The notes under the pieces are model-generated. The model saw only the letters and a program-made list of their open reading frames with translations. It had not been told where the DNA came from and searched no databases. The position numbers and the translations under genes are program-made. From Thalassolituus maritimus (GTDB lineage: Bacteria; Pseudomonadota; Gammaproteobacteria; Pseudomonadales; Oceanobacteraceae), in the NCBI GenBank assembly GCA_913019975.1, contig CAJWBH010000021.1, positions 1 through 57,761 on the forward strand: 57,761 nucleotides of DNA, read 5' to 3'. Below, piece after piece: positions 1,035 through 32,784 of the stretch (position 1 is the first letter of the stretch; the number at the start of each line of letters is the position of its first letter).

Positions 1035-1065
1035 AGAGTGTCTCCTTTTTAGTCGTTTTTTGTTG

Positions 1066-1323: not shown

Positions 1324-1369
1324 GGTACCACTCCGCTTGTTTGATTATTTATTATTAGTAATCATTAAA

Positions 1370-1388: not shown

Positions 1389-1462
1389 TGTTAAAATTAT
1401 AGTATTTTCAATTGGTTGTTGAGTTTTATGGAGCCGCTTTCAGTTGAAGTGATTAATTTGAG

Positions 1463-1508: not shown

Positions 1509-1535
1509 TCCGAGCTCGCCTATTCGAAGTGTAAG

Positions 1536-3206: not shown

Positions 3207-3257
3207 ATCAAGCTCTGAGTTATTTTTGTACTTATTCGTAGGCTTCGTAGCTTAAAA

Positions 3258-3295
3258 CGCAAAAAACGGCAGATGGGATTTTACCTATCTGCCGT
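3258..3295 (-). terminator. Rho-independent terminator after the ABC transporter operon
   Basis: The arms ACGGCAGAT (3266-3274) and ATCTGCCGT (3287-3295) form a perfect 9-bp stem with a 12-base loop. On the minus strand the hairpin is followed by a T-rich run (complement of the A-rich 3255-3266). It lies 22 bases past the stop of the substrate-binding protein gene and separates the importer operon from the activator gene. Confidence 0.8.
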
Positions 3296-3316
3296 ATCCT
3301 ACACAGACGAGACTGA

Positions 3317-4621: not shown

Positions 4622-4640
4622 AGGTACCTCTGTAGGTTGG

Positions 4641-6520: not shown

Positions 6521-6538
6521 ATTGATTAGCGTCCGCTC

Positions 6539-7959: not shown

Positions 7960-7967
7960 TATTTCTA

Positions 7968-8001
7968 TTCTTAGTAAGGCTATTTAAATTCATACTAAGA
8001 A
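7968..8001. promoter_or_regulatory. Inverted repeat ahead of the ABC importer operon
   Basis: TTCTTAGTA (7968-7976) and TACTAAGAA (7993-8001) are perfect 9-bp inverted arms around a 16-base spacer that itself contains the palindrome ATTTAAAT. The element lies just upstream of the LivG-type start codon, in the 181-base divergent region shared with the PanE-like gene. It could be a repressor operator or a hairpin in the leader. No regulator can be assigned. Confidence 0.4.
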
Positions 8002-8140
8002 GAATTGTGCGGCTTTTCGCTAACAAAATGGGGAATATAAGATCCCAAAAATGGGCGCAAGATTTGTGAATGCGAATAAAATTACCGGTTAGACTGGGCC
8101 TCGTATACATAAAATAGTGGTTTTAGAGGAGGTTGTCTTG

Positions 8141-9932: not shown

Positions 9933-10016
9933 TGTTCAGTGCTCTGCAGCGGTCCGTAATCGGCCCATTTGGACTGGTCATGCTAATCCCTATCAGATGC
10001 CCAATTCAAGCTTAAT

Positions 10017-10029
10017 TCCATATATGGGA
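10017..10029. promoter_or_regulatory. Candidate LysR-type binding box
   Basis: TCCATATATGGGA fits the T-N11-A LysR box and contains the perfect palindrome CCATATATGG (10018-10027). It lies in the divergent region between the LysR gene and the lower-pathway operon. The pattern is seen; binding is inferred. Confidence 0.35.
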
Positions 10030-10083
10030 TCTCAATGACCCATTAACGCTCTGTTTAATCGATAGCTGATTGATTATTGTTTT

Positions 10084-10098
10084 TGGACACCTGAGTGC
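10084..10098 (+). promoter_or_regulatory. Possible sigma-54 promoter of the lower-pathway operon
   Basis: TGGACACCTGAGTGC has GG and GC pairs separated by exactly ten bases, as sigma-54 promoters require, and lies 42 bases before the acetaldehyde dehydrogenase start. The -24 box deviates (TGGACA for TGGCAC), so this is a weaker match than the dmpK promoter. If real, the DmpR-type activator could drive both operons. Confidence 0.3.
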
Positions 10099-10139
10099 GC
10101 TGCGACTGGCGTTTGAAATAGGTTTTGGGGAAATAATAA

Positions 10140-11051
10140 ATGACACAAAAATTGAAGGCGGCGATTATTGGGCCGGGCAATATCGGCACCGATCTGCTGA
10201 TGAAAATGAAACGCTCAGACTGGATTGAACCGGTCTGGATGGTCGGTATTGATCCAACCTCTGAAGGGCTGAAACGCGCAGAGGAGATGGGGATTAAAAC
10301 CACCTCTGAAGGTGTGGATGGACTGGCACCGCACGTTATTGAAGATGATATCCGCATCGCCTTTGATGCAACCTCCGCTTATGTTCATGCTGAGAACAGC
10401 CGTAAACTGAACGAACTGGGTGTGATCATGGTCGACCTGACGCCTGCAGCGATCGGTCCTTTTTGTGTGCCGCCCGTAAATCTGGCAGACCATGCGCGAA
10501 ACCTGGAGATGAACGTCAATATGGTGACCTGCGGTGGTCAGGCGACTGTGCCGATGGTGGCAGCGGTTTCACGCGTTCAGCCGGTTAGCTATGGCGAGAT
10601 TATCGCGACCGTTTCCTCTAAATCGGTTGGTCCTGGTACACGTCAGAATATCGATGAGTTTACACGCACCACCGCTGGTGCTGTTGAGAAGGTCGGCGGT
10701 GCAAAACAAGGTAAGGCGATTATCATCATCAACCCCGCTGAGCCGCCGCTGATGATGCGTGACACAGTGCACTGCCTGACCGAAGGCGAGCCAGATCAAG
10801 CCGCTATTACAGAGTCGGTTGAGCAGATGGTGGCTGAGGTGCAGAAGTATGTACCAGGCTACAAACTGGTTAATGGCCCTGTATTTGATGGCAACCGTGT
10901 CTCCATGTTTATGGAGGTTGAGGGGCTAGGTGACTTCCTGCCGAAATACGCGGGCAACCTGGACATTATGACTGCTGCGGCTCTGCGCACGGCAGAGATG
11001 TTTGCCGAGGAAGTTGATAAGAACGTAATCAGTCTGCCAGCACGCGGTTGA
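10140..11051 (+). CDS. dmpF: Acetaldehyde dehydrogenase (acylating), DmpF/MhpF family
   Basis: 303-residue CoA-acylating aldehyde dehydrogenase that converts acetaldehyde to acetyl-CoA with NAD and CoA, the last step of meta cleavage. Visible are the Rossmann motif GPGNIG near the start and the catalytic cysteine in MVTCGGQAT (near residue 130). It forms a channelling complex with the aldolase encoded 10 bases downstream. Here it is the first gene of the lower operon, whereas in canonical dmp and xyl operons it follows the hydratase gene. The product of 49877-50812 is a second, slightly longer version. Confidence 0.94.
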
Positions 11052-11061
11052 GGTAAGAGTT

Positions 11062-12090
11062 ATGGATTTAAAAGGTAAGAAGGTTCGCCTTCACGATATG
11101 AGTCTGCGTGATGGTATGCACGCAAAACGTCATCAGATCTCACTCAATCAGATGGTGGAGGTCGCTAGCGCGATGGATGAAGCGGGTATGCCGCTGATCG
11201 AAGTGACCCACGGTGATGGTCTAGGTGGTGCATCGGTTAACTACGGCTTTCCCGCGCATACTGATGAGGAGTACCTCAGCGCGGTAGTGCCGAAGATGAA
11301 GCAGGCCAAAGTATCAGCACTGCTACTGCCCGGTATCGGTACCGTTGATCATCTCAAGATGGCGGCGGATTGCGGTGTATCGACCATTCGCGTCGCTACT
11401 CACTGCACCGAAGCGGATGTGTCGCAGCAGCATATCGGTATGGCGTCCAAAATGGGAATGGATACCGTTGGCTTCCTGATGATGGCGCATATGGCTTCGC
11501 CCGAGAAAATTCTGGAGCAGGCGCAGTTGATGGTTAGCTATGGCGCAAACTGCATCTACGCAACTGATTCCGCAGGTTACATGCTGCCGGATGAGGTCAG
11601 CAGCAAGATCGGCCTGTTACGCGCTGAACTCCCCGCGAATATCGAGATTGGCTTTCACGGCCACCACAACCTGGGGATGGGTATCGCTAATTCTCTGGCG
11701 GCGATTGATGCGGGCGCGGCTCGTATCGATGGTTCAGTTGCTGGCTTAGGTGCTGGCGCGGGTAATACGCCACTGGAGGTGTTCTGCGCGGTGTTGGATC
11801 GCATGGATGTTGAGACCGGCGTGGATCTCTACAAGATAATGGATGTCGCGGAGGATCTGGTGGTGCCGCTAATGGATCATCCGATTCGCGTAGACCGTGA
11901 TGCACTGACACTGGGTTATGCTGGTGTCTACTCCTCCTTCCTGCTGTTTGCGCAGCGCGCTGCCGCGAAGTACGGCGTGCAGGCGCGCGACATTCTGGTC
12001 GAACTGGGGCGCCGCGGTACCGTAGGTGGTCAGGAAGATATGATTGAAGACCTGGCACTCACCATGGCAAAACAAAAAGGAAAAGGCTGA
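11062..12090 (+). CDS. dmpG: 4-hydroxy-2-oxovalerate aldolase
   Basis: 342-residue class II aldolase that cleaves 4-hydroxy-2-oxopentanoate to pyruvate and acetaldehyde, handing the latter to DmpF. The metal and catalytic motifs of the HMG-CoA-lyase-like barrel are visible: [11 protein letters not shown] at the N-terminus (Arg and Asp) and [11 protein letters not shown] in the middle (metal-binding histidines). The stop overlaps the ATG of the next gene by one base (TGATG), so translation is coupled. Confidence 0.94.
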
Positions 12091-12881
12091 TGGGAAATCT
12101 GACGAGAGAAGAGATCGAAAAGCTCGCGGAACATTGCGAAAACGCTGAACTTCAAGCGTATGAGATCAGCAAAATTACCGACGATTATCCACAGATGGAT
12201 TACGAAGATGCCTTTGATATCCAGTGGGAGATTCGTCGCCGTAAAGAGGCACGCGGTAACAAGGTCGTCGGCATGAAGATGGGGTTGACCTCTTGGGCGA
12301 AGATGTCGCAGATGGGTGTGGAGCATCCCTGCTACGGTTTCCTTGCGGATTATTTCAGTGTTGATGATGGCGGCGAGCTGAAGGTCGATGAGTTGATCCA
12401 TCCGAAGATCGAAGCGGAACTGGCCTTTGTTCTGAAAGAGGACCTGAATGGGCCGGGTGTGCATATTGGTGATGTGCTTAAAGCGACAGATCTAGTGATG
12501 CCGGCGGTAGAGGTAATCGATTCACGCTATAAAGATTTTAAGTTCGACCTGAAAAGCGTAATTGCGGATAACTCCAGCTCTTCTCGCTTCCTGACTGGCG
12601 GTGTGGCTAAGCCGGTTTCAGAGTTGGATCTGAAAACCCTGGGTGTGGTGATGATGATCAACGGCGAAGTGGTTCAGACTGGAGCGGGTGCCGCTGTTCT
12701 GGGACACCCTGCCTCTTCTGTGGCGATGTTGGCTAACATGTTGGCGGAGCGCGGTGAGATGTTGAAAGCGGGTACTTTCATCATGATCGGTGCAATCACC
12801 GCAGCGGTTTCGGTCAATAAAGGTGACAGCTTCACAGTGCTCTTTGATGGACTGGGTTCGATCAGCGGACGTTGCGTCTAA
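12090..12881 (+). CDS. dmpH: 4-oxalocrotonate (2-oxo-3-hexenedioate) decarboxylase
   Basis: 263-residue member of the hydratase/decarboxylase family. It decarboxylates 2-oxo-3-hexenedioate to 2-hydroxypenta-2,4-dienoate in the dehydrogenase branch. It groups with DmpH and not with the DmpE-type hydratase at 15923 because of the N-terminal [22 protein letters not shown] pattern (shown in part) and its neighbours aldolase and tautomerase. DmpH normally acts in a complex with the hydratase, encoded 3 kb downstream in the same operon. Confidence 0.91.
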
Positions 12882-12891
12882 GGAGGCCTCT

Positions 12892-13083
12892 ATGCCAATT
12901 ATGGTCGTACATATGATGGAAGGGCGAAGCGAGGAGCAGAAGGCCGCACTGATTAAAGCGCTGACTGATGCAGCGGTTGAGTCGATCGGCGCCCCAATCG
13001 AGTCGGTCCGGGTGATGATTCAGGAGTTACCGAAAGAAAACTTCGGCATCGCAGGCGAGTCTGCCAAAAAGTTAGGACGTTAG
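12892..13083 (+). CDS. dmpI: 4-oxalocrotonate tautomerase
   Basis: 63-residue tautomerase that isomerises 2-hydroxymuconate to 2-oxo-3-hexenedioate. After loss of the initiator Met, Pro1 is the catalytic base (start MPIMVVHMMEGR), with Arg11 and the C-terminal GESAKKLGR typical of the family. The ATG at 12892 is preceded by AAGGAGG 6 bases away, and an upstream in-frame reading is ruled out because Pro1 must be exposed. It belongs to the dehydrogenase branch. Confidence 0.94.
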   Translation: MPIMVVHMMEGRSEEQKAALIKALTDAAVESIGAPIESVRVMIQELPKENFGIAGESAKKLGR

Positions 13084-13096
13084 GGTGGAGGCTAAG

Positions 13097-13414
13097 GTGA
13101 CAAGCTTGAATGTAACGGTGGTCGATAAAGCCAAAGATACTGAGGTCGCCTTCGATGCTAAGTCTGATCAGCCCGTTCTGCTTTCAATTCGCAGTGTCGT
13201 CGGATCGCCCATCCCCGTCGGTTGTAAAGGTGGTGGTTGTGGCGTGTGTAAGGTACGTGTGTTGGAGGGTAACTTCAGCGCGAAGCGGATGAGTAAAGCG
13301 CATATTTCAGAACAGGATCTTGAGGAGAATGTCGTGCTAGCCTGCCGAATCATTCCCGAGACGGATCTAAAAGTAGAAATTTTGGCTGAAACGCCGGAAG
13401 AAGATAAAAGCTAG
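13097..13414 (+). CDS. dmpQ: XylT/DmpQ-type [2Fe-2S] ferredoxin
   Basis: Plant-type ferredoxin of about 105 residues that re-reduces the active-site iron of catechol 2,3-dioxygenase after oxidative inactivation, mainly by methylcatechols. The cluster ligands lie in VGCKGGGCGVCKV plus a distal cysteine in LACRI. The start is uncertain: GTG at 13097 has GGAGG 5 bases upstream and gives MTSLNVTV; a GTG at 13085 (four extra residues) is possible but has poorer spacing. It sits directly ahead of the dioxygenase gene, as in dmp and xyl operons. Confidence 0.9.
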   Translation: MTSLNVTVVDKAKDTEVAFDAKSDQPVLLSIRSVVGSPIPVGCKGGGCGVCKVRVLEGNFSAKRMSKAHISEQDLEENVVLACRIIPETDLKVEILAETPEEDKS

Positions 13415-13447
13415 ACAATAAAGTACAAAATAACACTGGAGAAGATG

Positions 13448-14371
13448 ATGAAAAAAGGTGTAATGCGTCCAGGGCACGTGCAGATTCGTGTTTTGGATCT
13501 TGATGAAGCGGTTAAACACTATGCTGATCTGATGGGTCTGATTGAGATGGATCGTGATGATCAGGGGCGGGTCTACCTGAAAGGCTGGACCGAAGTTGAT
13601 AAATTTTCTGTTGTGCTGCGAGAAGCCGATGAAGCCGGCATGGATTTTATGGCCTTTAAAGTGGCTGATGAGGCCACACTGGATAGCCTGGCTCAGGACC
13701 TGCGTGACTACGGCCTAGAGCTGACTGAATTGCCAGCGGGCGATCTGAAAGATTGTGGTCGCCGTATTCAATTTACTGCCCCTACAGGTCACCATTTTGA
13801 GCTGTTTGCGACTAAAGAGCAGACCGGCAAATGGGGTGTGTCGAACCGCAATCCTGAAGCTTGGCCGCGTGATGCTAAGGGTATGAAAGCGACCCGCTTC
13901 GACCACTGTCTGCTCTATGGTGACGATATTGATGGCGTACTGGATATCTTCACTAATGTGCTGGGCTTCCAGTTGGTTGAACAGGTCGTTGAGCCGGATG
14001 GCAACAAGATCGCTATCTTCATGGCCTGCTCAATGAAGGAGCACGATATCGCCTTTATCCGTCAGCCGATGAAAGATAAGTTCCACCATGCATCTTTCTT
14101 CCTAGAGTCTTGGGAAGATGTGTTGAAAGCGGGAGATCTGTTGAGTATGACCGATACACCTATCGATATCGGTCCAACACGTCACGGTCTGACACACGGT
14201 ACGACGATCTACTTCTTCGATCCTTCAGGTAACCGCTGCGAAGTGTTTTCTGGCGGCGACTACACCTATCCGGATCACCCAGTTATTACCTGGGATGCTG
14301 AACAGCTAGGTAAGGCGATCTTCTATCACGATCGCGAGCTGAACGAACGCTTCCTGACGGTCGTGACCTGA
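13448..14371 (+). CDS. dmpB: Catechol 2,3-dioxygenase
   Basis: 307-residue extradiol dioxygenase (two-domain, XylE/DmpB type) that opens catechol to 2-hydroxymuconic semialdehyde with Fe(II) and O2. The start [12 protein letters not shown] matches the family; ATGATG at 13445 offers a second Met three bases earlier. Iron ligands correspond to His in [10 protein letters not shown], His in KFHHASFF and Glu in [10 protein letters not shown]. The second-shell stretch [16 protein letters not shown] is intact. The product of 45763-46686 is a close second copy with different codon usage. Confidence 0.96.
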
Positions 14372-14446
14372 TTAGCGACTAATCTTTGGGGCGGCTTAGG
14401 TTAAGTTTCTGGCTGCCCATTTTCCTTTCTAAGTGGTATAGAAAAT

Positions 14447-15907
14447 ATGAAAGAGTTTAAGCACTTTATTAACGGTGAATATCAGGCATCCAAAGCCGGA
14501 AAAACCTTTGAGAACCGTTCGCCGGTCGATAACAGCTTGATCGGGATGGTGCATGAAGCGGGTCGTGATGAAGTTGATGCAGCGGTTCAGGCTGCTCGCG
14601 CCGCACTGAAAGGCCCCTGGGGTAAGTTGACTCAGGCGAAACGTATCGAGTTGCTGAATAGAGTGGCCGATCGTATCAACGAGCGTTTTGATGAGTTCCT
14701 TGAAGCAGAGTGTCTGGATACCGGTAAGCCTCGCTCAATTGCTAGTCATATCGATATACCGCGTGGTGCAGCGAACTTCAAAGCTTTCTCTGAAACGCTG
14801 GCTAATCACCCGACCGAGTCATTCAATCTGGATACCCCAGATGGTAAGAGTGCAATGAACGTCGGTCACCGTACACCCAAGGGTGTGATCGCGGTGATCT
14901 CGCCCTGGAATCTGCCGCTGCTGCTGATGACCTGGAAAGTAGGTCCGGCATTGGCCTGTGGAAATACTGTGGTGGTTAAACCCTCGGAAGAAACGCCGGC
15001 GACCACCACCCTGCTCGGAGAGGTGATGAACGAGTGTGGTGTACCGCCTGGCGTCTTCAACGTGGTACATGGTTTTGGTCCCGATTCAGCCGGTGCTTAT
15101 CTGACCGAGCACAAAGGCATAGATGCGATAACCTTCACTGGCGAAACGCGGACGGGTGAGATCATTATGCAGGCCGCTGCGGTAGGTTTGCGCAACATCT
15201 CACTGGAATGTGGCGGTAAAAACCCCGGTATCGTGTTTGATGACTGCGATATAGAAAAAGCGGTTGAAGGCACTATGCGCTCGGTATTCGTGAACTGCGG
15301 TCAAGTTTGTCTTGGGACCGAGCGCGTTTATGTTCAGCGTGGCGTATTTGACAAGTTCCTCGCGCGCATGAAAGAGGAGACCGCCAAACTGAAGCTGGGT
15401 CGCCCTGAAGATCCAGACGCGAACTTTGGTCCGCTGATTAGTTTGGAGCACCGCGATAAGGTTGCTAGCTACTACAAACTGGCGATTGAAGAGGGCGCAA
15501 CTATAGAGATCGGTGGTGGTATTCCCGATATGGGTGACGAGCTTAACGGCGGCGCTTGGGTTGAGCCGACTATTTGGACCGGTCTATCTGATGATGCGCG
15601 TGTGGTGCGTGAAGAGATCTTCGGCCCCTGCTGCCACATTCGTCCCTTTGATACCGAAGAGGAGGTGATCGAATTGGCTAACGATACCGACTATGGTTTG
15701 GCTGCAGCGATCTGGACGGAAAATACTTCGCGAGCAGTACGTGTTGGTCAGCAGTTGGAAGCAGGTCTGGTCTGGGTTAACTCCTGGTTCCTGCGTGATC
15801 TGCGTACTGCGTTCGGTGGTGCAAAACAGTCCGGTATCGGTCGTGAGGGCGGTGTGCATGGCCTTGAATTCTACACCGAACTGAAAAATATCTGCATTAA
15901 GTTGTGA
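14447..15907 (+). CDS. dmpC: 2-hydroxymuconic semialdehyde dehydrogenase
   Basis: 486-residue NAD-dependent aldehyde dehydrogenase that oxidises the ring-cleavage product to 2-hydroxymuconate, opening the oxalocrotonate branch. Family marks are ISPWNLPLLLMTWK, the catalytic Glu in SLECGGKNPG and the catalytic Cys in NCGQVCLGTE. This cluster has no semialdehyde hydrolase gene, so all flux must go through this enzyme unless the hydrolase at 48186 assists. It starts 75 bases after the dioxygenase and ends 15 bases before the hydratase. Confidence 0.95.
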   Translation: MKEFKHFINGEYQASKAGKTFENRSPVDNSLIGMVHEAGRDEVDAAVQAARAALKGPWGKLTQAKRIELLNRVADRINERFDEFLEAECLDTGKPRSIASHIDIPRGAANFKAFSETLANHPTESFNLDTPDGKSAMNVGHRTPKGVIAVISPWNLPLLLMTWKVGPALACGNTVVVKPSEETPATTTLLGEVMNECGVPPGVFNVVHGFGPDSAGAYLTEHKGIDAITFTGETRTGEIIMQAAAVGLRNISLECGGKNPGIVFDDCDIEKAVEGTMRSVFVNCGQVCLGTERVYVQRGVFDKFLARMKEETAKLKLGRPEDPDANFGPLISLEHRDKVASYYKLAIEEGATIEIGGGIPDMGDELNGGAWVEPTIWTGLSDDARVVREEIFGPCCHIRPFDTEEEVIELANDTDYGLAAAIWTENTSRAVRVGQQLEAGLVWVNSWFLRDLRTAFGGAKQSGIGREGGVHGLEFYTELKNICIKL

Positions 15908-15922
15908 CCGGAGACAAACCCT

Positions 15923-16708
15923 ATGGATCAACAACAGATTAAAGCGCTTGGCGATGAACTCTATAACTCGCTGGTTAACCGCATTACGGTTAAACCGCTG
16001 ACTGAGCGTTTCCCCGATATTAAAGTGGAAGACTCTTATGAGATCTCCAAAGTGATGACTGAGAATCGCGTGGCTGCGGGCGAGAAAGTGATCGGTAAGA
16101 AAATAGGCCTGACCTCTAAGGTTGTGCAGAACATGCTCGGTGTTGGTCAGCCAGATTTTGGATTCCTGACCGACGGTATGGCCTACAGTCAGGGTGAAGA
16201 GATGCCGATCTCTGAAAAACTGATTCAGCCTAAGGCTGAGGGTGAGATCGCCTTCATTATGAAGAGAGACGTGATGGGTCCCGGTTTGACCGTTGCCGAT
16301 ATCATGGCGGCGACCGAGTGCGTGATGCCCTGTTTTGAGGTGGTTGATTCACGCGTCGAGAACTGGAAGATCAAAATTCAGGATACGGTTGCTGATAACG
16401 CCTCCTGCGGACTGTTTGTGCTCGGTGATCAGGCGGTTAGCCCACGCAGTATCGACCTGCGCACCGTGGGCATGGTAGTTGAGAAGAACGGCTCGGTTAT
16501 CTCTACCGGTGCAGGCGCAGCAGCCTTGGGTTCTCCAGTGAACTGCGTAACCTGGCTGGCAAATATGATGGGCCAGTTTGGTATTCCTTTGAAAGCGGGT
16601 GAAGTGATTCTGTCAGGCTCTCTGGTGCCGATGGAACCGGTGGTTGCCGGCGACTATATGAGCGTCTCTATTGGTGGTATTGGCAACGCGTCAGTTCGTT
16701 TTGTATAG
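15923..16708 (+). CDS. dmpE: 2-hydroxypenta-2,4-dienoate (2-oxopent-4-enoate) hydratase
   Basis: 261-residue hydratase of the DmpE/XylJ/MhpD family that adds water to 2-hydroxypenta-2,4-dienoate to give 4-hydroxy-2-oxopentanoate. Its sequence closely matches the product at 49055-49840, and motifs such as GKKIGLTSKVVQNML, EGEIAF and IQDTVADNASCG identify the group. The product feeds the aldolase encoded earlier in the operon, so the operon is functionally complete for the dehydrogenase branch despite its unusual order. Confidence 0.93.
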   Translation: MDQQQIKALGDELYNSLVNRITVKPLTERFPDIKVEDSYEISKVMTENRVAAGEKVIGKKIGLTSKVVQNMLGVGQPDFGFLTDGMAYSQGEEMPISEKLIQPKAEGEIAFIMKRDVMGPGLTVADIMAATECVMPCFEVVDSRVENWKIKIQDTVADNASCGLFVLGDQAVSPRSIDLRTVGMVVEKNGSVISTGAGAAALGSPVNCVTWLANMMGQFGIPLKAGEVILSGSLVPMEPVVAGDYMSVSIGGIGNASVRFV

Positions 16709-16722
16709 ATTGGAGGTTTAAT

Positions 16723-17286
16723 GTGGTTGATCTGGATCGCGCTGTTACCGTTGTTGTCTCGCGTCGGGTAACACCGGGTAACGAAGAGGCTTTTGAGCGG
16801 TTGAGTGTTCAACTCACTCAATGTGCCGCAGAATTTGCCGGTTACTTAGGAGCGACCATGCTCAAACCTGCCTCAGCCATAGACCCTGAATATCGAATTA
16901 TATTCCGATTCAAAGATCAGGACGATCTGGAAAAGTGGAATCAGTCCGACGCGAGGCAGCGACTAATTGCACAGATTCAACCCTTGATTCTTGAACAGAG
17001 TCGCACCGAATCTCTGGATGGTATTGCAACCTGGTTTAGCTTGCCGGTCGCCCCTACGGCGCCGGCTCCAAACCGATTGCGGATGACACTGGTCAGTTGG
17101 TTGGCGCTTTATCCGACCGTTACTCTGATCTTCGCGTTGTTGGCTGACCTGCTCGCACCCTTGCCCTTGCCGGTGCGTACCTTGATCATTACCGGTATTG
17201 TGATGTTTGCCATGTCCTATCTGCTGATGCCCAGATTTACCAGTTGGTTTCGTCCTTGGATATTCCAGAGCCGTGGGCTGCGTTGA
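16723..17286 (+). CDS. ABM-domain protein with C-terminal membrane helices (COG3224-like)
   Basis: 187-residue protein with an N-terminal antibiotic-biosynthesis-monooxygenase fold (dimeric alpha-beta barrel, about 8-105) and two hydrophobic helices (about 122-142 and 150-170), so it is probably an inner-membrane protein with its ABM domain in the cytoplasm. A GTG start at 16723 fits the upstream GGAGG. An overlapping ATG at 16721 is in another frame. It follows the hydratase by 14 bases and appears to be part of the operon. ABM domains include quinol monooxygenases and heme-degrading enzymes, so a role in removing toxic quinones is conceivable; nothing in the sequence proves it. Confidence 0.7.
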   Translation: MVDLDRAVTVVVSRRVTPGNEEAFERLSVQLTQCAAEFAGYLGATMLKPASAIDPEYRIIFRFKDQDDLEKWNQSDARQRLIAQIQPLILEQSRTESLDGIATWFSLPVAPTAPAPNRLRMTLVSWLALYPTVTLIFALLADLLAPLPLPVRTLIITGIVMFAMSYLLMPRFTSWFRPWIFQSRGLR

Positions 17287-17313
17287 GGGGCATTGGAATG
17301 AAAGAGGTTCTAT

Positions 17314-18354
17314 TTGTTTGATTTTAAGTTAAGCGTCGTTGATCAGGTTCCTGTTCACAATGGCAAAACGCAGGCGCAGGCGCTTGATGATGCTCTGAAA
17401 CTGGCTCAGAGTTGCGATGCGTCAGGGTACTACCGTTACTGGTTTGCCGAGCACCATGCGACTCTCTGTTATGCCTGTTCTGCGCCGGAGCTGATGATAT
17501 CCCGAGTTGCTGCGGCTACAGAAAACCTTCGTGTAGGCAGCGGCGGTGTAATGCTGTCTCACTACAGTCCGTACAAAGTCGCTGAGCTGTTCAGAACGCT
17601 GGACGCGCTCTACCCGGGTCGCATTGATCTGGGTATTGGTCGCGCACCGGGTGGTGCTGAGTTACCCAGTCGTGGCCTAGCTTATCCGCATTCATACCAG
17701 AATGCCGAGGGTTTTTTGGAGCGTGTAGCGGTGTTGGCCGAGTGTCTTACCCACGACCAACTCAACCAGGGAGCTTTGCGAGGGCTGGTAACGACCCCGC
17801 TTGGAGGTCAGGGACCAGAACGCTGGATGTTGGGATCAAGTGACGGCAGTATTGAAAATGCGGCACTGACGGGCTGGAATTTCGTTCTGGCGCTGTTTAT
17901 TGGCAACCATGAGCGTCCGGCCGATATTATAGAACGCTACAAAGCGATGTATCGGCAACGTCAGGGATCCGAAGGCAAAGCGATGATCGCGGTGGCTTCA
18001 ATTGCCGCAGATAGCCGGGAAGAGGCTGAGTTTCTTGCATCAACGCACACCTTCTGGAAGCTTCAGTCACAGTTAAGAGGAGTACGTGAAGGTTTACGTT
18101 CTCCTAAGGAGTGCATGAGTCTTTATAAGCAGTTATCAGTCAGTGAAAGAGCCTTCTTCGACCAAACCCGGGGCAACATGATCGTTGATACCGCTGAAAA
18201 CTGCCTGCAACGCATGGAAGACCTTACGCGATACTACGGCGTTAATGAGGTGATGGTTGTTGCAGTAACTCACGATTTTCAAGCGCGCAAACAAAGCTAT
18301 ATACGACTAGCTGAGACCAAAATGGATAGTATCTTATGCACGAGCTCAATCTAA
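17314..18354 (+). CDS. Luciferase-like (LLM class) flavin-dependent oxidoreductase
   Basis: 346-residue bacterial luciferase-like monooxygenase, a TIM barrel that uses reduced FMN. Recognised from the N-terminal family pattern (SVVDQVPV, RYWFAEHH), LRVGSGGVMLSHYSPYKVAE and GIGRAPGG. The best start is TTG at 17314 with AAAGAGG 7 bases upstream; no ATG fits. It lies 27 bases after the ABM gene, apparently the last gene of the lower-pathway operon. The substrate is unknown and it is not a standard meta-pathway member. Confidence 0.78.
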   Translation: MFDFKLSVVDQVPVHNGKTQAQALDDALKLAQSCDASGYYRYWFAEHHATLCYACSAPELMISRVAAATENLRVGSGGVMLSHYSPYKVAELFRTLDALYPGRIDLGIGRAPGGAELPSRGLAYPHSYQNAEGFLERVAVLAECLTHDQLNQGALRGLVTTPLGGQGPERWMLGSSDGSIENAALTGWNFVLALFIGNHERPADIIERYKAMYRQRQGSEGKAMIAVASIAADSREEAEFLASTHTFWKLQSQLRGVREGLRSPKECMSLYKQLSVSERAFFDQTRGNMIVDTAENCLQRMEDLTRYYGVNEVMVVAVTHDFQARKQSYIRLAETKMDSILCTSSI

Positions 18355-19189
18355 AATCTTTGCCGGACTTGACCTATCAAGGATTCGCCTGTGCCACCCG
18401 ACTGCGGCGTCAAAGTATCGAATCCCTCATCAGCGAAATTCTGGATAAAGCGATCGCGCGGAAAAACAGATTTGAAGCAATATCTAATCCCCCAAAAAGC
18501 AATTCGACTGAGGCTCTCAATACGGATAACAAAATGCGCTTGGATATGTTGCGGGCAAATTAAAGCTTGGCTTGCATCTACGAAAACCCTAGACTCGAGC
18601 TTGGTTGCGTGCTCCAAAATCTGTCGGCTTGGAGGTGGTAAGGGTCTATGACCGGAACATACTTTTGGCAGAAGGCTGAGAGCAGCAGGAATGAACTTTG
18701 AGGGTCGACAGGATTTGCCTTTCGGTAAAACCTGACTTCTTCAAATTGAGCTACTGATTCATAGATCATAAAACGCTTAACTTAACACCCCGATTAATTT
18801 TCGGGGAGACTACATATGTGCCGACCCCAGAAAATCTTAAGGGTTATGACAATAGTCCGCTTCAGGAAAATTTCTCCGATCGTGCAAGGGCTGAAATGTG
18901 CGCTTAACCGCCATCTGGCGTTCCGTTGCAAATGACGCCTAAGTGCCGTTCTGAGACGGTGAACCAGATAATTACGGCGCGAAGATACAACCGCAAAAAT
19001 CGGTCTATAACTTCGTTACTTCGGCCGTGGCACCGCAAGGTTAAACAGCAGGTGAGGGCAGTGCCCTCACGGACTCATATGTTTAAAAATTACCGGAGCC
19101 GCCTGTGGCGGGCAACGCCCACCGACTGTAACCGTTCTGAAAAAGTCCGAGTGTGGGCTATGCCTTCGGCCTGATGGGCACCACATCCG
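18355..19189. other. Hairpin-rich non-coding stretch
   Basis: About 835 bases with no convincing gene. It contains a run of short perfect dyads: CCCCGA/TCGGGG (18788-18806), CGCCATCTGGCG (18909-18920), CCGT/ACGG (18946-18959), GTGAGGGC/GCCCTCAC (19052-19070), GGGC/GCCC (19110-19120), TGTGG/CCACA (19153-19185) enclosing GCCTTCGGC, and CCGTTAGAACGG (19187-19198). The last overlaps the stop of the small recombinase-associated gene. They could be terminators, recombination or replication sites, or a structured RNA. A small reading frame at 18336-18563 is probably chance. Confidence 0.5.
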
Positions 19190-19612
19190 TTAGAACGGTA
19201 CATCGGTACTTTTAGGGTCGATGCTGATGTCCGTCACGCCACCAAATCGCGGCACATCACCGCCGAGCCTGCGTATGGTTTTCGCCATTTCAGCATTGAG
19301 GTACAGCAATGACATGTAGCGACTCCGTGCTACGTCGAGGTCACGCTTTAGCAATTCGATCTCGGCTGTTTGCTTAGGGTTCACTGCGACGCGCTTTTTA
19401 GCCTCAGGGCGCGGCTGTGCGCCTGCCTGGTCAATCGCTTCGAGGAGTGGCTCAAAACCAGGTCGGTTACGGATCGAACCACGTTTACGACCCGCCTCCA
19501 GGGCAACTGTGTCCTTGTTAATCGGACTACCTTTCTCGATAACTTGCGGCTTGTTCTGCTTGAGGCGCTCAAGCGCAGCGAAGTACTCCTTCACCGTTGC
19601 ACTCATAGTCAT
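19190..19612 (-). CDS. Small protein of the integrative element (SRAP/TnpC-like position)
   Basis: 140-residue protein, last gene of a four-gene recombination module. It has a basic central segment (INKDTVALEAGRKRGSIRNR) and a probable coiled coil toward the C-terminus (about 85-115). No enzyme motif is seen. Its ATG overlaps the stop of the second recombinase by four bases, so it is made together with it. By position it corresponds to the small auxiliary protein of strand-biased circularizing integrative elements or to TnpC of Tn554; that equivalence is inferred from layout only. Confidence 0.65.
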   Translation of the reverse strand: MTMSATVKEYFAALERLKQNKPQVIEKGSPINKDTVALEAGRKRGSIRNRPGFEPLLEAIDQAGAQPRPEAKKRVAVNPKQTAEIELLKRDLDVARSRYMSLLYLNAEMAKTIRRLGGDVPRFGGVTDISIDPKSTDVPF

Positions 19613-21708
19613 GCGTCCATCTCCTCAGGTTCTAAATAAGTTTTTGTGACGTGATCAATCTCGGCAGCAATGAGCTTATAGGGGCGGCTATTCGGTGAAT
19701 GCGCCTCCATCTCATACTGAAGACTGTCGACGTACGTTTTAAGCTTCTCGGGCATGAGGATCGCGTCTTTACAGTCCGAGGTGCAGGGAAGTACCACATC
19801 CACCGCGAAATGCGGGCAACTGCCCTTCAGCGCGCACCCGCCCACAGGGGTCTCTTTGTAGGCTAATTTCCCTTGTTTGACGGCTTTCTGAGTCTCTTCA
19901 CGACTCTCAAACATCTTAGGTAGAGCACCCGACTCTTTTGCACGCTGGAACTCTGCGCCCCGAGGGCCATAGAGTGGGGTTTGAGACTCAATCACTTGCT
20001 CATGAAACCGTACACTCACGTTGAATGCGACCGACTCTCTGAAGTTGAAAAGCACCGAGCCGTCGTCAATCGGCTTACCCTCCCCATCCATCAAGAAGTT
20101 CTCAGCAAAGGAACACCCCTCAGCGTACACGGCAGTCATGACCTCAGAGAGGTGTTTGAAGTGGGTTTTCAGCGTGGGGAGCGACACCATACCCGAGCGG
20201 CTGGCGTAGACCGCTACGGAGCGACGTAACTGGTGCGACGCAAGCGGCCACAGTTTGCCGACAGCAAATTCAGGCTTCTCGTCCCAGCCCCGAAACGCAT
20301 CAAACACGGCCAACTCCTCCATGTCTTCATCCTCAATCACCAACTCCAAGGAAGCCGCAAGAGAGCGCCAATTGCTTGTTTCTGAAATCCGTGTGGCTAT
20401 TGGGATTGGATAGTGGCCTCTGTTGTCGATTCGGTTGATGCGCGGTGCAATAAACAACGGCAGATTACTGGGAAGCGGCGCATCCGCTGGACGGTTGCGA
20501 AACCAATTCAAACGGGCAATCTGTTGAGCGATTTTAACAGCGTATAGACCCTGCTCTGCAGTCGCCCATACCAACGGTTTGCTATAGTTGCCCTTGTCCG
20601 TGAATTTCTTCAAGTGCGACACCACCACTGGCAAGTCCCCAAACCCTTTTGCAAACCCATGCACAACGGGCTCGTGGGGCATAACCCGCACCTCGCTTGT
20701 ACGCATCCCGGTAAACGCGTGAATGAGCAGTACACAGAGTCCTTGCAGGTGGCTGATATGCTCCTCGATATCTCTAAAATCTTCAAACTGCATGTGTTGT
20801 TCGGCATAGTCCGTCAGCCCAAACCGCGCAAGCACACCTTCGGGGCTCGTTGGCTCATTAGCGCGTTTGCTCCAAGCAGGAAAGACTTTGTCTGGATAAA
20901 CCCTCTTCACCCGCTTAAGGCCTACCATATACGAATGACTATCGCACACCCAGAGCAACGGGTCGGCGTACACGGCCTGAATAAGCGCCTCTAGACGCGG
21001 CAAATACGGCTGGGCCGCCTCCATCTGTGCCAAAGCACCACCAATCAACTTACCGAATAAGCGGGTCGGCACTAATGGCGTTGGGTCTCTACGTTCAAGC
21101 TTACGGTTATGCGATTTTTTGCATAGCGCGAGAACATCGGAAAGGTCCGCTTCCGGTACGATACGCGGAACATTGCAGGTGATTTTTTCAACGCCCTGCC
21201 AGTAATTCAGGTCTTTCAGTAAACCATCCAATCGTATTGAATCTTTGAAACCCTCACGCGCATTTGCGATGGATGTGCGCAAACCCACTTGAAAATGAGG
21301 ACTGTGCTCAGCCTCGGCCAACGAAATTCCAAGTAGATGGCACATTTTGGCGATTGCGCGCAACGGTTGTATTATGCCTGCTAGGTAAGCCAATCCCCGC
21401 GAGCGACCCGCATTGCTCGTCGTCTCGAAGCCACTAAGCCAGTGAAGGGTTTTAATCTCATCCGTGAGTGTGCGGGCCAGCCCATCCATCGGACCTTTCT
21501 CGCTACTCCACCACGAATCAAACCAAATCTTGCTCAACGCCCCGTAAGGGGTGTAATCCCATGAGTCATCCTTGAATCGGCTTATCACCTTTCTTTCGGT
21601 ATTGCGAGCGATTACGAATTCAGGATCAATTCCCGTGCTCTTTATCTCTCCAGTGCTATCGGGACTGTAGTCAAGTTTTTCGTCGATACAGCGGAAGTCG
21701 AAATCCAT
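19609..21708 (-). CDS. Large tyrosine recombinase (IntB-like)
   Basis: 699-residue site-specific recombinase. The catalytic domain (about 330-600) shows the first arginine in HAFTGMRTSEVR, the HxxR box in SHQLRRSVAVY and a candidate nucleophile in LSEVMTAVYAEG. A cysteine-rich patch (GGCALKGSCPHF...CTSDC) near residues 640-665 may bind zinc. The ATG at 21708 is chosen because AGGAGG stands 6 bases upstream; a longer reading to 21795 would run into the preceding gene. It belongs to a tightly packed operon with the genes on both sides. Confidence 0.8.
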   Translation of the reverse strand: MDFDFRCIDEKLDYSPDSTGEIKSTGIDPEFVIARNTERKVISRFKDDSWDYTPYGALSKIWFDSWWSSEKGPMDGLARTLTDEIKTLHWLSGFETTSNAGRSRGLAYLAGIIQPLRAIAKMCHLLGISLAEAEHSPHFQVGLRTSIANAREGFKDSIRLDGLLKDLNYWQGVEKITCNVPRIVPEADLSDVLALCKKSHNRKLERRDPTPLVPTRLFGKLIGGALAQMEAAQPYLPRLEALIQAVYADPLLWVCDSHSYMVGLKRVKRVYPDKVFPAWSKRANEPTSPEGVLARFGLTDYAEQHMQFEDFRDIEEHISHLQGLCVLLIHAFTGMRTSEVRVMPHEPVVHGFAKGFGDLPVVVSHLKKFTDKGNYSKPLVWATAEQGLYAVKIAQQIARLNWFRNRPADAPLPSNLPLFIAPRINRIDNRGHYPIPIATRISETSNWRSLAASLELVIEDEDMEELAVFDAFRGWDEKPEFAVGKLWPLASHQLRRSVAVYASRSGMVSLPTLKTHFKHLSEVMTAVYAEGCSFAENFLMDGEGKPIDDGSVLFNFRESVAFNVSVRFHEQVIESQTPLYGPRGAEFQRAKESGALPKMFESREETQKAVKQGKLAYKETPVGGCALKGSCPHFAVDVVLPCTSDCKDAILMPEKLKTYVDSLQYEMEAHSPNSRPYKLIAAEIDHVTKTYLEPEEMDA

Positions 21709-21709
21709 C

Positions 21710-23683
21710 TTAAACCTCCTGTATATCGAGCAACGCGTTGATTTTTGAACCCCAGTAATGATCTTGCTCACCTCGCTCAAACCGCGCTTTTGCATCTTTC
21801 AGGCGCTGTGAAAAACCGTCACTGTAGTCATGAACATCCGCCAAAATTTGATCAATACGATTCTGATAGGGCGCAAACTTAACGAAGTATTCATCAATTG
21901 AGCTTGAGAACTGTCGGCTCTGCACTTCAATCCAACGTTTCATTGTGAGTAGCTGTATTAGATCCGTGTCGTCAGCGTGCAGGCCAAAGTGAATGCAGAA
22001 GATGCAGGTGACGGGCGCACCGCAACGCGGCTGCAAGCTAGGATCTACAACGCCGTCAATCGCTTTGGGGCCGCTCAGTTCATTCTCATCACAGATGCCT
22101 GAGCTGATTGTCTTGCCACCATCAATGACTCGCACAGGTGCCACACCGTTATAGCGATGCTGTGCTGACTCCGCTTGCAGTTTAAAATATTCACTCATTG
22201 CTTTGGCCGCTTCTAGGTAGCTTTCATAGGCGTAGTGGGATTCGATGGTTTGAGGGGTTGCGGATTGAAGCGCGGAGACCAATGCAACGTTGTTTCCCGA
22301 GGCCTTCTTCAGATTAACCGTCCGATGCTTGCGAGATGCACGTGTTGCCTTTGTAGGCGCACCTTCTGGCCACAGCGCAAGCGCGGACATCTCGGAGTGC
22401 TTCAAAAATCGGTAGGGCTCCAAATTTTTTCTATTAGGTATAAGGAAAACGCCCCGTTTGGGTGGATGCGCTAGTTTCGCACTCATCCATTGGCGCAACC
22501 TAAGATATTTTTTCCAGGTTGTTTGAGCAAAACGAACATCGACATATTGGCTTTGATTTTCGTACCCTGCACGGCCCTTGATTGCACGCATTTGGGCAAG
22601 CCCAAGTGCTTTGTTTAAACGTATCTGACTACAATCCACACTGGCGAGGTGCGCGGCATTGTTGCCTGCCTCCGCCAGCAAAAGATAACCAAAATGCCGA
22701 GCCGCTTCGTTGGCTATTCTAATCAGTTGCCCTTCACTAAACTGGCGATTCTCATCCTGCTTACGTTTAAAGTTCTTGGTACCAATAGGCTCAATGCTAT
22801 GCTGCACCAACAGCGCATTGAAATCTTTTGACGTTCCCTCGAACACCCCCTCGCGACGGTAGAAATAGGGCATCCAGTCGGTACGCCCATTGTTTGTCCA
22901 ACCGTTGTGGTTGTTGGCCGCCTGCGAGTAGTAAATCAGGTCATCAAACCCCAGATCCTGTAGCTCAATCACAACTGGCGGTGCAGTTTGGTTTACTATC
23001 GCGTCGGCCAGACCGTCAAAGATTCGCGCATGCATCGCATGGGCTAAGTTGTGATCGTCCGAAGTCGAGGCGGGCGCAGGCACTTCCTTGTCAGATTGTT
23101 TTTTCTGAGGGATCTTAATTGCCCATCCTTCCACAACAGCATTATCAGTACTCAGCGCTAACGCGCACAGATAGCGCAACGCTCTCTGGTAAATGCTAGC
23201 GGTCGGATAGCATATAGAACCCTCGGCCTCTGTTTTCATTTGCCCGACGTTCGATAGACGCAATCGATATCGAAGGTGCTCGGTGTAGTCAATGTAGAGC
23301 TGTCGTGCCGCCTCTTGCTCAGATAGATCGTGACTACGACCTTTCGTATCAATCCAATTGAGTGCTTTCTCAATATGAATGAAGCTAGGCATATTCGAGT
23401 GACCTTCAAGCAGCGCTTTGCACACCTTGGCCATCAACGTAGTGCGCTGTGAGCACAGGCTCAGCAGATTGACCTTCTGAAGCTCTTTTGTACTGGACAC
23501 CGTTGCATCAAGGTTACGACGGTCGAGATAACAGACGCGGTAAGGGCGTGCGTAACGAGTTGAACCTCTAGTCTTCTGATCAATTACCAAAGTATCAGGC
23601 GTGAATTCTGGAGCCACATCGAATTCACCTAATGGGAGTGTTTGCAAATCAGGCAGCGTGTACACAGCGGGATTAGATATCAT
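21710..23683 (-). CDS. Large protein between two recombinases (CDS2-like), function unknown
   Basis: 657-residue protein encoded between two tyrosine recombinase genes with one-base spacing on each side. I see no clear Arg-HxxR-Tyr catalytic set. A candidate zinc-binding patch lies in CGAPVTCIFCIHFG (about 564-577) and a basic stretch in RKHRTVNLKKASG (about 455-467). Size and place match the unnamed second gene of SE-type integrative elements and recall the large recombinases of Tn554. It probably acts in the recombination complex, but that is inference. Confidence 0.6.
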   Translation of the reverse strand: MISNPAVYTLPDLQTLPLGEFDVAPEFTPDTLVIDQKTRGSTRYARPYRVCYLDRRNLDATVSSTKELQKVNLLSLCSQRTTLMAKVCKALLEGHSNMPSFIHIEKALNWIDTKGRSHDLSEQEAARQLYIDYTEHLRYRLRLSNVGQMKTEAEGSICYPTASIYQRALRYLCALALSTDNAVVEGWAIKIPQKKQSDKEVPAPASTSDDHNLAHAMHARIFDGLADAIVNQTAPPVVIELQDLGFDDLIYYSQAANNHNGWTNNGRTDWMPYFYRREGVFEGTSKDFNALLVQHSIEPIGTKNFKRKQDENRQFSEGQLIRIANEAARHFGYLLLAEAGNNAAHLASVDCSQIRLNKALGLAQMRAIKGRAGYENQSQYVDVRFAQTTWKKYLRLRQWMSAKLAHPPKRGVFLIPNRKNLEPYRFLKHSEMSALALWPEGAPTKATRASRKHRTVNLKKASGNNVALVSALQSATPQTIESHYAYESYLEAAKAMSEYFKLQAESAQHRYNGVAPVRVIDGGKTISSGICDENELSGPKAIDGVVDPSLQPRCGAPVTCIFCIHFGLHADDTDLIQLLTMKRWIEVQSRQFSSSIDEYFVKFAPYQNRIDQILADVHDYSDGFSQRLKDAKARFERGEQDHYWGSKINALLDIQEV

Positions 23684-25161
23684 TAGTTAAAATCCTTTAG
23701 ACGGCTGTTGATGCGGTCATGGTGATAAGCGATGGCCTCTTTTACAGACTCGTTCTCCTCATCGAATTTGAGGTAGGCTTGCGTTGTCTCGAAATTCGAG
23801 TGACCCATGCGCGCTTTGAGTTCGTGACGCACGTCCTTCACGCCCGCCGTATCCGCATCCCTTACGAAGTTCATTCCGTATGTGGCACGGAAATCATGGA
23901 ATCTAAACGCGTTAAAGTCAGGATGATCGCGGCGGATATCACGGATCAGACGACCTAGGTAGTTCCGTACCGCATTGCCCTCCTGAACAGTGAAAGTCAC
24001 ACGGTCTTTGGCAGTTATACGCTGGCTGTACTTGCTGTCCTGACGATCAGATTGCTCCTTTAGGCTCGTATAAAAAGGCGACCCGTTCCTGGCGAGAAAT
24101 AAATAGTTGTCGCGTGAGTCGCCGTAGAAGCTGAGGGATCTGCGCTCCTGATGCTCTTCTGACTCCATGTAATCACGTAGCATATCGCGTAACTGGATAG
24201 GCACATGCAGGCGGTATTTCTTCTGATTCTTAGTATCGACGCCTGTGCCCTCGCCGATATTGAGTAGTACCTCGCCGTTACGAGAGCGCTGCTCCATCAA
24301 ACTGTCAATGTCACGCATGCGCAGTGTGCATACCGTCTGTATACGCGCACCTGTGTAGAGCGCAACAAGACACATCAACTGAAAGACTCGATTATCCGAT
24401 TTCGCCAGATACTCCAAAATGAGCGTCTGATCCTCTTCGCTCAATGGTCTTAAATTACCGCCGTCTTTGAGGGTGCCGATTTGATCACGTCTGGAAACAC
24501 GAAAGGCAAAGTTCGTTGTCTCTACCGCTTTCATGAACTGAACGCCCGAAGAATTCACAACCGGAATACCGACTAGTTTGCCTTCATAAGGCGGGTTTTC
24601 TAGGGCTGTTTCCGCCACTAATTCATAAAGAGAAAGGCCGCGATAGAAACCGACCACCGCTTGCATTCGTGCTTTTGCAACACCTACTGAGATTGGAGAG
24701 TCCTGCCCCATGCGCAACAATTTTCTGAGGTAGCGGTAGTACGACCAGGTGCAGCGCTGCTCCGCTTCTTTTGGAAGGAACAGTTCATGCATGGCACGAC
24801 CTTCAGACTGCTGGTGCTCGATCCAGCGCAAATACATCGTTAGGTGCTTAGCGATAGACTGAATAGTTGAAACACTCGGCGGCTCAACCTTGGCCATCTC
24901 TGTAAATTTGCGTATCAGATACAGATTGCCCAGATCCCATGGCTCTCTGTCACCGCGCAGGATAATTGGGAACTTGCGGACGACCCCGTCTTCAATGGGT
25001 GACAATTGGATGGAGAGGTCGTGGTAACGAAACGGCGAGAAGTGACCAACCTGCTTGCTGCCTTCGCTCTCTAGTGAGACCTCGGACGGGACAAACACAT
25101 CAATGTATGAGAGATGTGCGCTTGAGTTTAACGCTTCTTTTGATCGCTTGTCTGATCGCAT
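23683..25161 (-). CDS. Tyrosine recombinase / integrase (IntA-like)
   Basis: 492-residue tyrosine recombinase, first gene of the recombination operon. An N-terminal core-binding domain (about 80-200) is followed by a catalytic domain with Arg in TGARIQTVCTLRMRDID, the HxxR box HDFRATYG and MGHSNFETTQAYLKF carrying the nucleophilic tyrosine. It is transcribed leftward from the short region 25162-25241, which holds paired direct repeats and palindromes that could be its binding sites or promoter operators. Its 3' end overlaps the next start by one base. Confidence 0.88.
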   Translation of the reverse strand: MRSDKRSKEALNSSAHLSYIDVFVPSEVSLESEGSKQVGHFSPFRYHDLSIQLSPIEDGVVRKFPIILRGDREPWDLGNLYLIRKFTEMAKVEPPSVSTIQSIAKHLTMYLRWIEHQQSEGRAMHELFLPKEAEQRCTWSYYRYLRKLLRMGQDSPISVGVAKARMQAVVGFYRGLSLYELVAETALENPPYEGKLVGIPVVNSSGVQFMKAVETTNFAFRVSRRDQIGTLKDGGNLRPLSEEDQTLILEYLAKSDNRVFQLMCLVALYTGARIQTVCTLRMRDIDSLMEQRSRNGEVLLNIGEGTGVDTKNQKKYRLHVPIQLRDMLRDYMESEEHQERRSLSFYGDSRDNYLFLARNGSPFYTSLKEQSDRQDSKYSQRITAKDRVTFTVQEGNAVRNYLGRLIRDIRRDHPDFNAFRFHDFRATYGMNFVRDADTAGVKDVRHELKARMGHSNFETTQAYLKFDEENESVKEAIAYHHDRINSRLKDFN

Positions 25162-25175
25162 TGATGTAATAGCCC

Positions 25176-25195
25176 ATATGTATTATGTACATATA
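25176..25195. promoter_or_regulatory. Palindromic site upstream of the integrase
   Basis: TATGTACATA (25184-25193) is a perfect palindrome nested in a wider near-inverted pair CATATGTA (25176-25183) / TACATATA (25188-25195). It lies 15-34 bases before the integrase start and could be an operator or recombinase-binding site. Confidence 0.35.
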
Positions 25196-25201
25196 GACTA
25201 T

Positions 25202-25241
25202 CACGTTAGGTGTTCTATTTTTATGTGTACACGTTAGGTGT
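25202..25241. repeat. Direct repeats CACGTTAGGTGT at the element/DUF2130 junction
   Basis: The 12-base sequence CACGTTAGGTGT occurs at 25202-25213 and again at 25230-25241, 28 bases apart. The second copy ends exactly where DUF2130 coding homology begins. This is the likely terminal region of the integrative element, and the repeats may be recombinase-binding sites. Confidence 0.5.
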
Positions 25242-25820
25242 ATGTTTGAGATGAAGAACGAGAACGATACAACGGCCACAAAGAAAAAGAACGAAGACTT
25301 TTTCAAAGAACTCGATAAAGACCGTAATGAGAAAGGCTGTGAGTACGCAGTACTTGTCTCTCTGCTCGAGCCAGACAATGAGCTATACAACTCGGGGATA
25401 GTGGACGTCTCTCACCGCTATCCAAAGATGTATGTCATCCGTCCGCAGTTTTTCATACCGATGATTACACTGCTACGTAACGCCGCAACCAATGCGTTGC
25501 AGTACAAACAGGAGCTGGCACTCGTTAGAGCTCAGAATATCGATGTAACCAACTTCGAAAGCGATTTGAATAAGTTCAAAGATGCATTCTCACGCAATTA
25601 CGACTTGGCATCGCGTCAGTTCCAGACCGCGATTGAAGAGATCGATAAGTCTATCAATCACTTGCAGAAGACCCGTGAAGCGCTGCTGAAATCTGACAAC
25701 AATTTACGCTTAGCGAACGATAAAGCGCAGGATGTGACGGTCAAAAAACTAACCCGAAAGAATCCTACAATGGCCGCAAAATTTGCGGAGCTCGATAGCC
25801 CTGATACGGAGAATGATTAA
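25242..25820 (+). pseudogene. DUF2130-family protein, C-terminal fragment
   Basis: 192 residues that match the conserved C-terminal domain of DUF2130 proteins from [16 protein letters not shown] onward, with [19 protein letters not shown]-like and LQKTREALL segments. Full-length members are roughly 400 residues or more with a long N-terminal coiled coil, so about half the protein is missing. Upstream there is only the integrase promoter region, so the 5' half was removed or displaced by insertion of the element. The frame is intact, and an ATG happens to stand at the junction. The function of the family is not established. Confidence 0.8.
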
Positions 25821-32781: not shown

Positions 32782-32784
32782 CAA

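Follow-up and report, generated by a model that had tools for sequence, protein, structure and literature searches.

A probable strand-biased integrative element core at an interrupted DUF2130 gene, beside a phenol and meta-cleavage gene block, in Thalassolituus maritimus

Organization of the four-gene module

The stretch of DNA analysed here (the window) is a contig of 57,761 bases from a 3.49-Mb draft assembly of Thalassolituus maritimus in 34 contigs, and its subject is a module of four coupled minus-strand genes at 19190–25161, in the order intA-tfp-intB-srap, which adjoins a truncated DUF2130 gene and resembles the core of the strand-biased circularizing integrative elements (SEs). The junctions between the genes read TAATG, TAAGATG and ATGA, and the genes overlap or abut. 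The start of intB is taken as the ATG right after the tfp stop, where the mechanical open reading frame (ORF) comprises 728 residues and is open to 21795. An earlier note on this DNA had described a module of four overlapping or abutting genes with two tyrosine recombinases of 492 and 699 residues; all four minus-strand ORFs lie where it had placed them, and both IntA and IntB keep the residues R-H-R-H-Y. Among the four core proteins Pfam gives a match for IntA alone, and neither these four nor 14 proteins from four other SE-like loci reach the cut-offs of NCBIfam. The AlphaFold model of Srap (pLDDT 82, pTM 0.43) places its long helix at residues 79–115. No matches were obtained with Rfam at 17500–26500 or with a tRNA scan of the window.

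Table 1. Features of the module and its surroundings (window coordinates)
Feature	Position	Strand	Description
candidate cargo block	45..18354	.	genes identified by Pfam and plasmid matches; no recognised element end between block and srap
srap-to-catabolic gap	18355..19189	.	835 bp; no ORF >88 aa, no srkA, no recognised C', no similar sequence in plasmid collection
srap	19190..19612	-	140-aa auxiliary protein, helical, with long C-terminal helix
intB	19609..21708	-	long tyrosine recombinase, 699 aa counted from the coupled ATG
tfp	21710..23683	-	657 aa, tyrosine-recombinase-fold-like, Arg-I lost, without Pfam match
intA	23683..25161	-	tyrosine recombinase, 492 aa, R273/H422/R425/H454/Y463; PF00589 (Phage_integrase) 3e-10
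inner copy of motif C core	25202..25213	-	ACACCTAACGTG, 28 bp further in
motif C, left (intA-proximal) terminus	25223..25242	-	TACACCTAACGTGTACACAT, outside to inside; exact length and first base inferred
DUF2130 3' remnant	25242..25820	+	last 192 codons of a gene cut by insertion
predicted 6-bp target-derived spacer	25243..25248	-	CAAACA, beside motif C; may be 1–2 bases off

Junction with the DUF2130 gene and motif C

The PF09903 (DUF2130) match of the remnant begins only at profile position 84–87 of 255, and DNA homology to the intact gene of Bradyrhizobium pBsp27S5b (470 aa) starts exactly at 25242, after 276 codons. The codon at the cut is number 248 in the DUF2130 copy of a Mitsuaria plasmid (458 aa), and intact homologues possess 247–276 codons more than the remnant. 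A 12-bp direct repeat, CACGTTAGGTGT, occupies 25202–25213 and 25230–25241; at least two matches to it with at most one mismatch were present in 2 of 100 shuffled windows. Motif C of the window was placed by alignment with four relatives described below, which have YACCCYTAACG where srkA is interrupted and whose two-copy layout is similar, the second copy standing about 26–28 bp further in, and the spacer was positioned by alignment with the relatives and with intact DUF2130 genes. Since motif C stands at the DUF2130 junction, the left end of an SE probably lies here, and by SE convention an element with its intA-proximal end at DUF2130 runs leftward.

In a separate assembly, the metagenome-assembled genome (MAG) UBA11143, 22,184 bases spanning the junction are 99.995% identical, which speaks against a chimeric junction, although the two assemblies may share reads. 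The DUF2130 remnant is matched in one of 44 genomes of the family, namely this one, and the interrupted gene is therefore itself accessory DNA. Near the remnant, positions 26342–27868 encode an M50 protease that has PDZ domains. Its ORF begins well before the protease domain, and this may reflect only the start choice of the ORF caller.

Homology to SEs and their relatives

Plasmid pAQU1 carries SE-Pda04Ya311, an experimentally active SE (PMC10214605, available in part), here equated with the block of four genes next to blaGMA-1, the available part of that source giving no coordinates. Profiles were seeded with the window and four close relatives and grown on the ORFs of related and plasmid loci, with pAQU1 excluded. 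The best matches of the final-round profiles on pAQU1 are its SE core, with E-values of 4e-46 (IntA), 4e-40 (Tfp), 3e-59 (IntB) and 2e-10 (Srap, the weakest of the four links to the validated SE).

One genome scan yielded 128 candidate stretches, 83 of which were confirmed and 80 kept. In 70 of these 80 loci, a number that includes the window's locus as found in UBA11143, all four genes stand in SE order on the same strand; the remaining 10 lack one or two core genes within the stretch examined. The closest relatives, with IntB 53–55% identical, come from a Zhongshania MAG, Thalassobium NORP79, Cellvibrio OA-2007, Cellvibrio sp. 79 and Oceanobacter; identity to the Zhongshania proteins is 65% for IntA, 54% for IntB and 74% for Srap. 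In an IntB tree the window groups with the Cellvibrio, Zhongshania and Thalassobium elements (six rows, one of them the window's locus in UBA11143; SH-aLRT 100), but long branches, that of pAQU1 among them, were flagged by the tree program, so that the deep order of this tree is not usable. No close relatives were found in viral contigs. Complete SE-order blocks occur in six of the 70 loci in records labelled Betaproteobacteria (L090, L092, L102, L104, L110 and L140), and homologues of Tfp and Srap are reported as absent from Betaproteobacteria in the available part of PMC10214605.

Catalytic residues and the nature of Tfp

In IntA each of the five catalytic residues is kept in 78–80 of 80 sequences; all 79 IntB sequences keep R, H, R and Y, and 77 of them the second histidine. 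The RHRY set present in these two recombinases is not found as a full set in Tfp, which is likewise described without it in the literature (PMC10214605, available part). Tfp has lost Arg-I and the conserved histidine residues; its Arg451 and Tyr484 are invariant in all 81 sequences, including that of pAQU1, as are four cysteines (531, 554, 560 and 563) in 50 sequences. The canonical tyrosine-recombinase motif is HxxR. Judged by the surrounding motifs, such as TPSKLRQT in pAQU1 compared with HxxR, Arg451 can be read as Arg-II and Tyr484 as the nucleophile; when the Tfp profile was compared with those of small IntA and IntB alignments, the outcome was uninformative and did not reveal this assignment. 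The AlphaFold model of Tfp (pLDDT 83, pTM 0.65) has tyrosine recombinases as all of its 16 best Foldseek matches in the PDB, none of them significant (best E 0.055). The large protein between the two recombinases thus looks like a tyrosine-recombinase fold with a degenerate active site, which, given the invariant arginine and tyrosine, may not be catalytically idle.

Relatives inserted in srkA

The left junction (attL) is readable in four relatives (Cellvibrio OA-2007, Cellvibrio sp. 79, Thalassobium NORP79 and Zhongshania), and in all four srkA is interrupted within the codons for NSYENR, motif C following directly after the NSYE codons; the Oceanobacter contig is too short for its left junction. 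The right-end motif C' is of the form YAHCCTTAA in all five right junctions (attR) read, those of the same four relatives and of Oceanobacter. Both ends lie on one contig in Thalassobium NORP79 and Cellvibrio sp. 79, and these two complete elements are 17,537 and 52,943 b long. In Cellvibrio OA-2007, Zhongshania and Oceanobacter attR stands on another contig, so that it presumably, rather than visibly, belongs to the same element.

SEs are described as following a 6-bp fingerprint/footprint rule, by which 6 bp of the target stand beside C and 6 carried bp beside C' (PMC10214605, available part). Joining the flanks with the 6 bp of attL gives an open SrkA frame of 331–374 aa in four of four relatives, the 6 bp beside C being native. 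Joining them with the 6 bp of attR gives NSRANR, NRYKNR and NRSENR in three of the four, where conserved residues are changed, and in Zhongshania one silent base differs; the 6 bp beside C' are clearly foreign, then, in three of the four relatives read at both ends. As judged from these junction sequences, the rule fits the srkA clade. The right ends are further marked by TGTACA, which occurs 17 times in five stretches of 200 bp (3, 2, 2, 5 and 5 per relative) compared with 11 times in 98,432 bp inside the elements.

A copy of srkA accompanies all five relatives. In both Cellvibrio elements it follows srap closely, and in Zhongshania, Thalassobium and Oceanobacter it lies a short way within the right end; in two relatives it begins at most 30 bp from srap. 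The right-hand piece of the SE-like element in the Zhongshania MAG (L060:3906–17995) contains the BREX genes PglX, PglZ and BrxL together with MkoA and HEC-01 family hits. In the host of the window, the srkA homologue is intact and empty, with a 342-aa open frame 50% identical to the query and AACAGCTATGAAAACCG at the site. A literature search, within the library that it covered, found no SE paired with an srkA (yihE) target.

Assignment of the module

Gene order, homology to a validated SE, the active-site residues, motif C and the integration signature of the relatives together identify the module as an SE core, a new representative of a known element class with its intA-proximal end at DUF2130, to which we assign a probability of about 0.88. 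The likeness to SE core proteins proposed in the earlier note is borne out by the matches of all four proteins to the pAQU1 SE in the same gene order; the cut that it had placed at 25241/25242, made by the intA-side end, agrees with the start of DNA homology and with motif C at the junction, and its leftward extension follows from the SE convention.

The pAQU1 SE shares with the window the core order, the full R-H-R-H-Y set in IntA and IntB, and a degenerate Tfp with the same arginine and tyrosine, but Tfp, Srap and IntA are only 15–24% identical in alignments, the target is another, and its cargo is blaGMA-1. The srkA-clade elements are close in IntB and show a similar motif C in the four left junctions read, and differ from the window in their srkA target, in right ends that were found and in defence cargo (BREX, in Zhongshania). 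SE-6283 (Tn6283) sits in bcp and carries a bcp copy (PMC9345347, available in part), and by that description is like the srkA relatives, which combine insertion in a gene with a carried copy of it; the window differs in its DUF2130 target and shows neither srkA nor a second DUF2130 copy.

Several observations weigh against the assignment. First-round profiles, built on the close clade only, matched pAQU1 with IntB (1.5e-13) and Srap (0.18) and gave no IntA or Tfp match, so that the relation of the window to the validated SE is distant and depends on intermediates. The target is DUF2130 and not srkA as in the relatives, the srkA copy of all five relatives has no counterpart in the window, and the window's motif C, TACACCTAACG, deviates from the YACCCYTAACG of the clade. 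Moreover, the element has not been seen complete, motif C being present and neither C' nor the DUF2130 5' half recognised. C' was sought in the window by ungapped inverted-repeat matching, by an IUPAC pattern (38 matches against a chance expectation of 41) and by a weight matrix made from nine sites of the relatives and the window's own C, and none was recognised as far as base 1. In the 1,120,884 b read of the 33 other contigs (both 20-kb ends of each of C1–C20, and all of C22–C34), neither a C'-like motif with a TGTACA repeat nor the DUF2130 5' half was found, the DUF2130 query matching a known homologue at E 4e-115, and whole-genome searches with DUF2130 and with an N-terminal query (the latter without a control) likewise gave no 5' half. 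The missing N-terminal half and the matching end to the left, whose absence the earlier note itself would count against its reading, were thus not recovered in this assembly. The strict pattern applied to the contigs would miss the window's own C, and the test for three TGTACA misses two of the five right ends, so that a diverged end may be overlooked.

Two groups of candidates for the right end were set aside. The best plus-strand C' candidates left of srap (7045 and 4396) lie inside ABC-transporter genes and are without TGTACA repeats, and a TGTACA cluster on another contig (C8:5071–5141), upstream of MerR-like and photolyase-like genes, was judged unrelated from neighbours that look chromosomal by eye.

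If the module is an SE core, IntA and IntB would, with assistance from Tfp and Srap, connect motif C with C' through single-strand exchange, and a circle bearing 6 bp of the left flank would be copied out. On integration, the central 6 bp of the target would remain beside C, and the carried 6 bp would end beside C'. Here the element would have inserted into the DUF2130 gene, and its right end may lie beyond the contig, have been lost, or have diverged past recognition. Mobility and strand bias of the window element are what we infer from the relatives and from published SEs.

The catabolic block left of the core

The block left of srap contains one Phenol_Hydrox subunit gene, a XylR/DmpR-type regulator, a branched-chain-type ABC transporter, meta-cleavage genes and a luciferase-like monooxygenase. 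Base 1, where the contig ends, is 44 bases past the phenol hydroxylase subunit gene, so that the missing DUF2130 5' half and matching end decide neither for nor against the cargo. This gene gives the single match to Phenol_Hydrox (PF02332) in the whole assembly, a family to which, we assume, the catalytic alpha subunit also belongs; with the single match at the contig end, the phenol operon (window 1–1118) appears to be cut there. No other good copy of window bases 1–80 exists in the assembly, and the contig end is accordingly no obvious repeat.

The earlier note had considered the phenol and meta-cleavage genes as cargo. The block does adjoin the cargo side of the core, but its inclusion in the element is not established, as no attR was seen, and the phenol genes are accordingly rejected here as proven cargo. 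When the catabolic proteins were compared with the relatives (79 loci besides the window's own, each taken with at most 10 kb to either side of the match, and nine others), only aldehyde dehydrogenases matched. Clusters on plasmids match the meta-cleavage genes at about 70% identity; one of these plasmids is pLIB119, and no module like the present four-gene core is annotated in the 24.8 kb of it that was viewed. The GC content is 0.519 in the block, 0.509 in the core and 0.516 in the rest of the genome read, and with the genome so near to both, GC has no power to assign the block. Within the library covered, a literature search did not find an SE carrying phenol-degradation genes, the paper that mentions both SEs and phenol using phenol as a reagent, and the available part of the GInt paper (PMC5385486) has no words on catabolism, degradation, aromatics or phenol.

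Other features of the window

A second catabolic operon at 39305–54370 encodes a glutamine-synthetase-like protein, a glutamine amidotransferase and a Rieske dioxygenase with its reductase, followed by a second meta-cleavage set; it presumably resembles the aniline dioxygenase type. Two divergent Tn3-family transposase genes lie at 29641–35796, with inverted stretches 72% and 90% alike. A 300-bp exact repeat occurs in IS21-type genes at 35870–36169 and 56339–56638, and the end of the UBA11143 contig is calculated at about window position 35893, beside the first repeat copy.

Alternative interpretations

Taking the module as an SE core, two accounts of its left side have to be weighed. The SE may be decayed, its cargo side and right end having been deleted or replaced by recombination within a transposon patchwork, with the phenol block as an independent neighbour. 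The mosaic character of the contig, with its two Tn3-family transposases, its IS21-type genes with the exact repeat and its second catabolic operon, is consistent with such a history, as are the missing srkA copy, the lack of a recognised C' and the absence of sizeable ORFs in the 835 bp that separate srap from the block; the four core genes and motif C are nevertheless all intact, and no transposase gene lies from srap to the block, which leaves this account close to an even chance. Alternatively, the SE may extend left past the contig end, with the phenol and meta-cleavage block as cargo of an element longer than 25 kb. No end motif is recognised from srap to base 1, the DUF2130 5' half does not stand beside the srap end, unlike what is expected for a short undisturbed element, and the relatives reach 53 kb; furthermore, the assembly lacks three things at once, a right end, the 5' half of DUF2130 and a second subunit of the Phenol_Hydrox family, as if they shared a single unassembled piece past base 1. 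Against this extended element stand the attR that was not seen, the uninformative GC, the absence of phenol genes from the stretches searched in the relatives, and the 835-bp gap that parts srap from the block where two relatives have srkA within 30 bp, and the account is possible with the odds somewhat against it. The wider scenario, in which an srkA-clade SE took a block of more than 18 kb for phenol and meta-cleavage into a DUF2130 gene on accessory DNA, away from the usual target, and would spread aromatic degradation by a tyrosine-recombinase route of copy-out/copy-in, is likewise possible with the odds against it.

Other element classes fit the module less well than the SE class. GInts also possess three recombinase-like proteins and a small fourth one, the genes standing at one end of the element and the cargo downstream of the fourth gene (PMC5385486, available part). 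By that description the degenerate member is GinC, from the third gene of ginABCD, whereas here the second protein is degenerate and the third fully catalytic, so that gene order and the place of the degenerate member differ; as all four genes are also homologous to those of a validated SE, a GInt is very improbable. RIT elements have three recombinases of 315–410 aa, all with the catalytic tyrosine, and 34-bp terminal repeats (PMC10214605 Table 1, available part), to which sizes of 492, 657 and 699 aa and a fourth gene do not fit. A Tn554-related element is ruled out by the presence of tfp, since TnpA-TnpB-TnpC is described without a Tfp counterpart (PMC10214605, available part).

Significance

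The SE class is young, and the ends of few of its members are known; a clade with readable ends is added to it here, and in the srkA clade the 6-bp fingerprint/footprint rule is supported from sequence alone. One member of this clade is found away from the usual srkA target. The invariant arginine and tyrosine in the supposedly inactive Tfp raise a concrete question that is approachable by mutation. The described SE cargo of known function consists mainly of resistance genes; if the phenol and meta-cleavage block is indeed cargo, SEs would carry degradation pathways as well.

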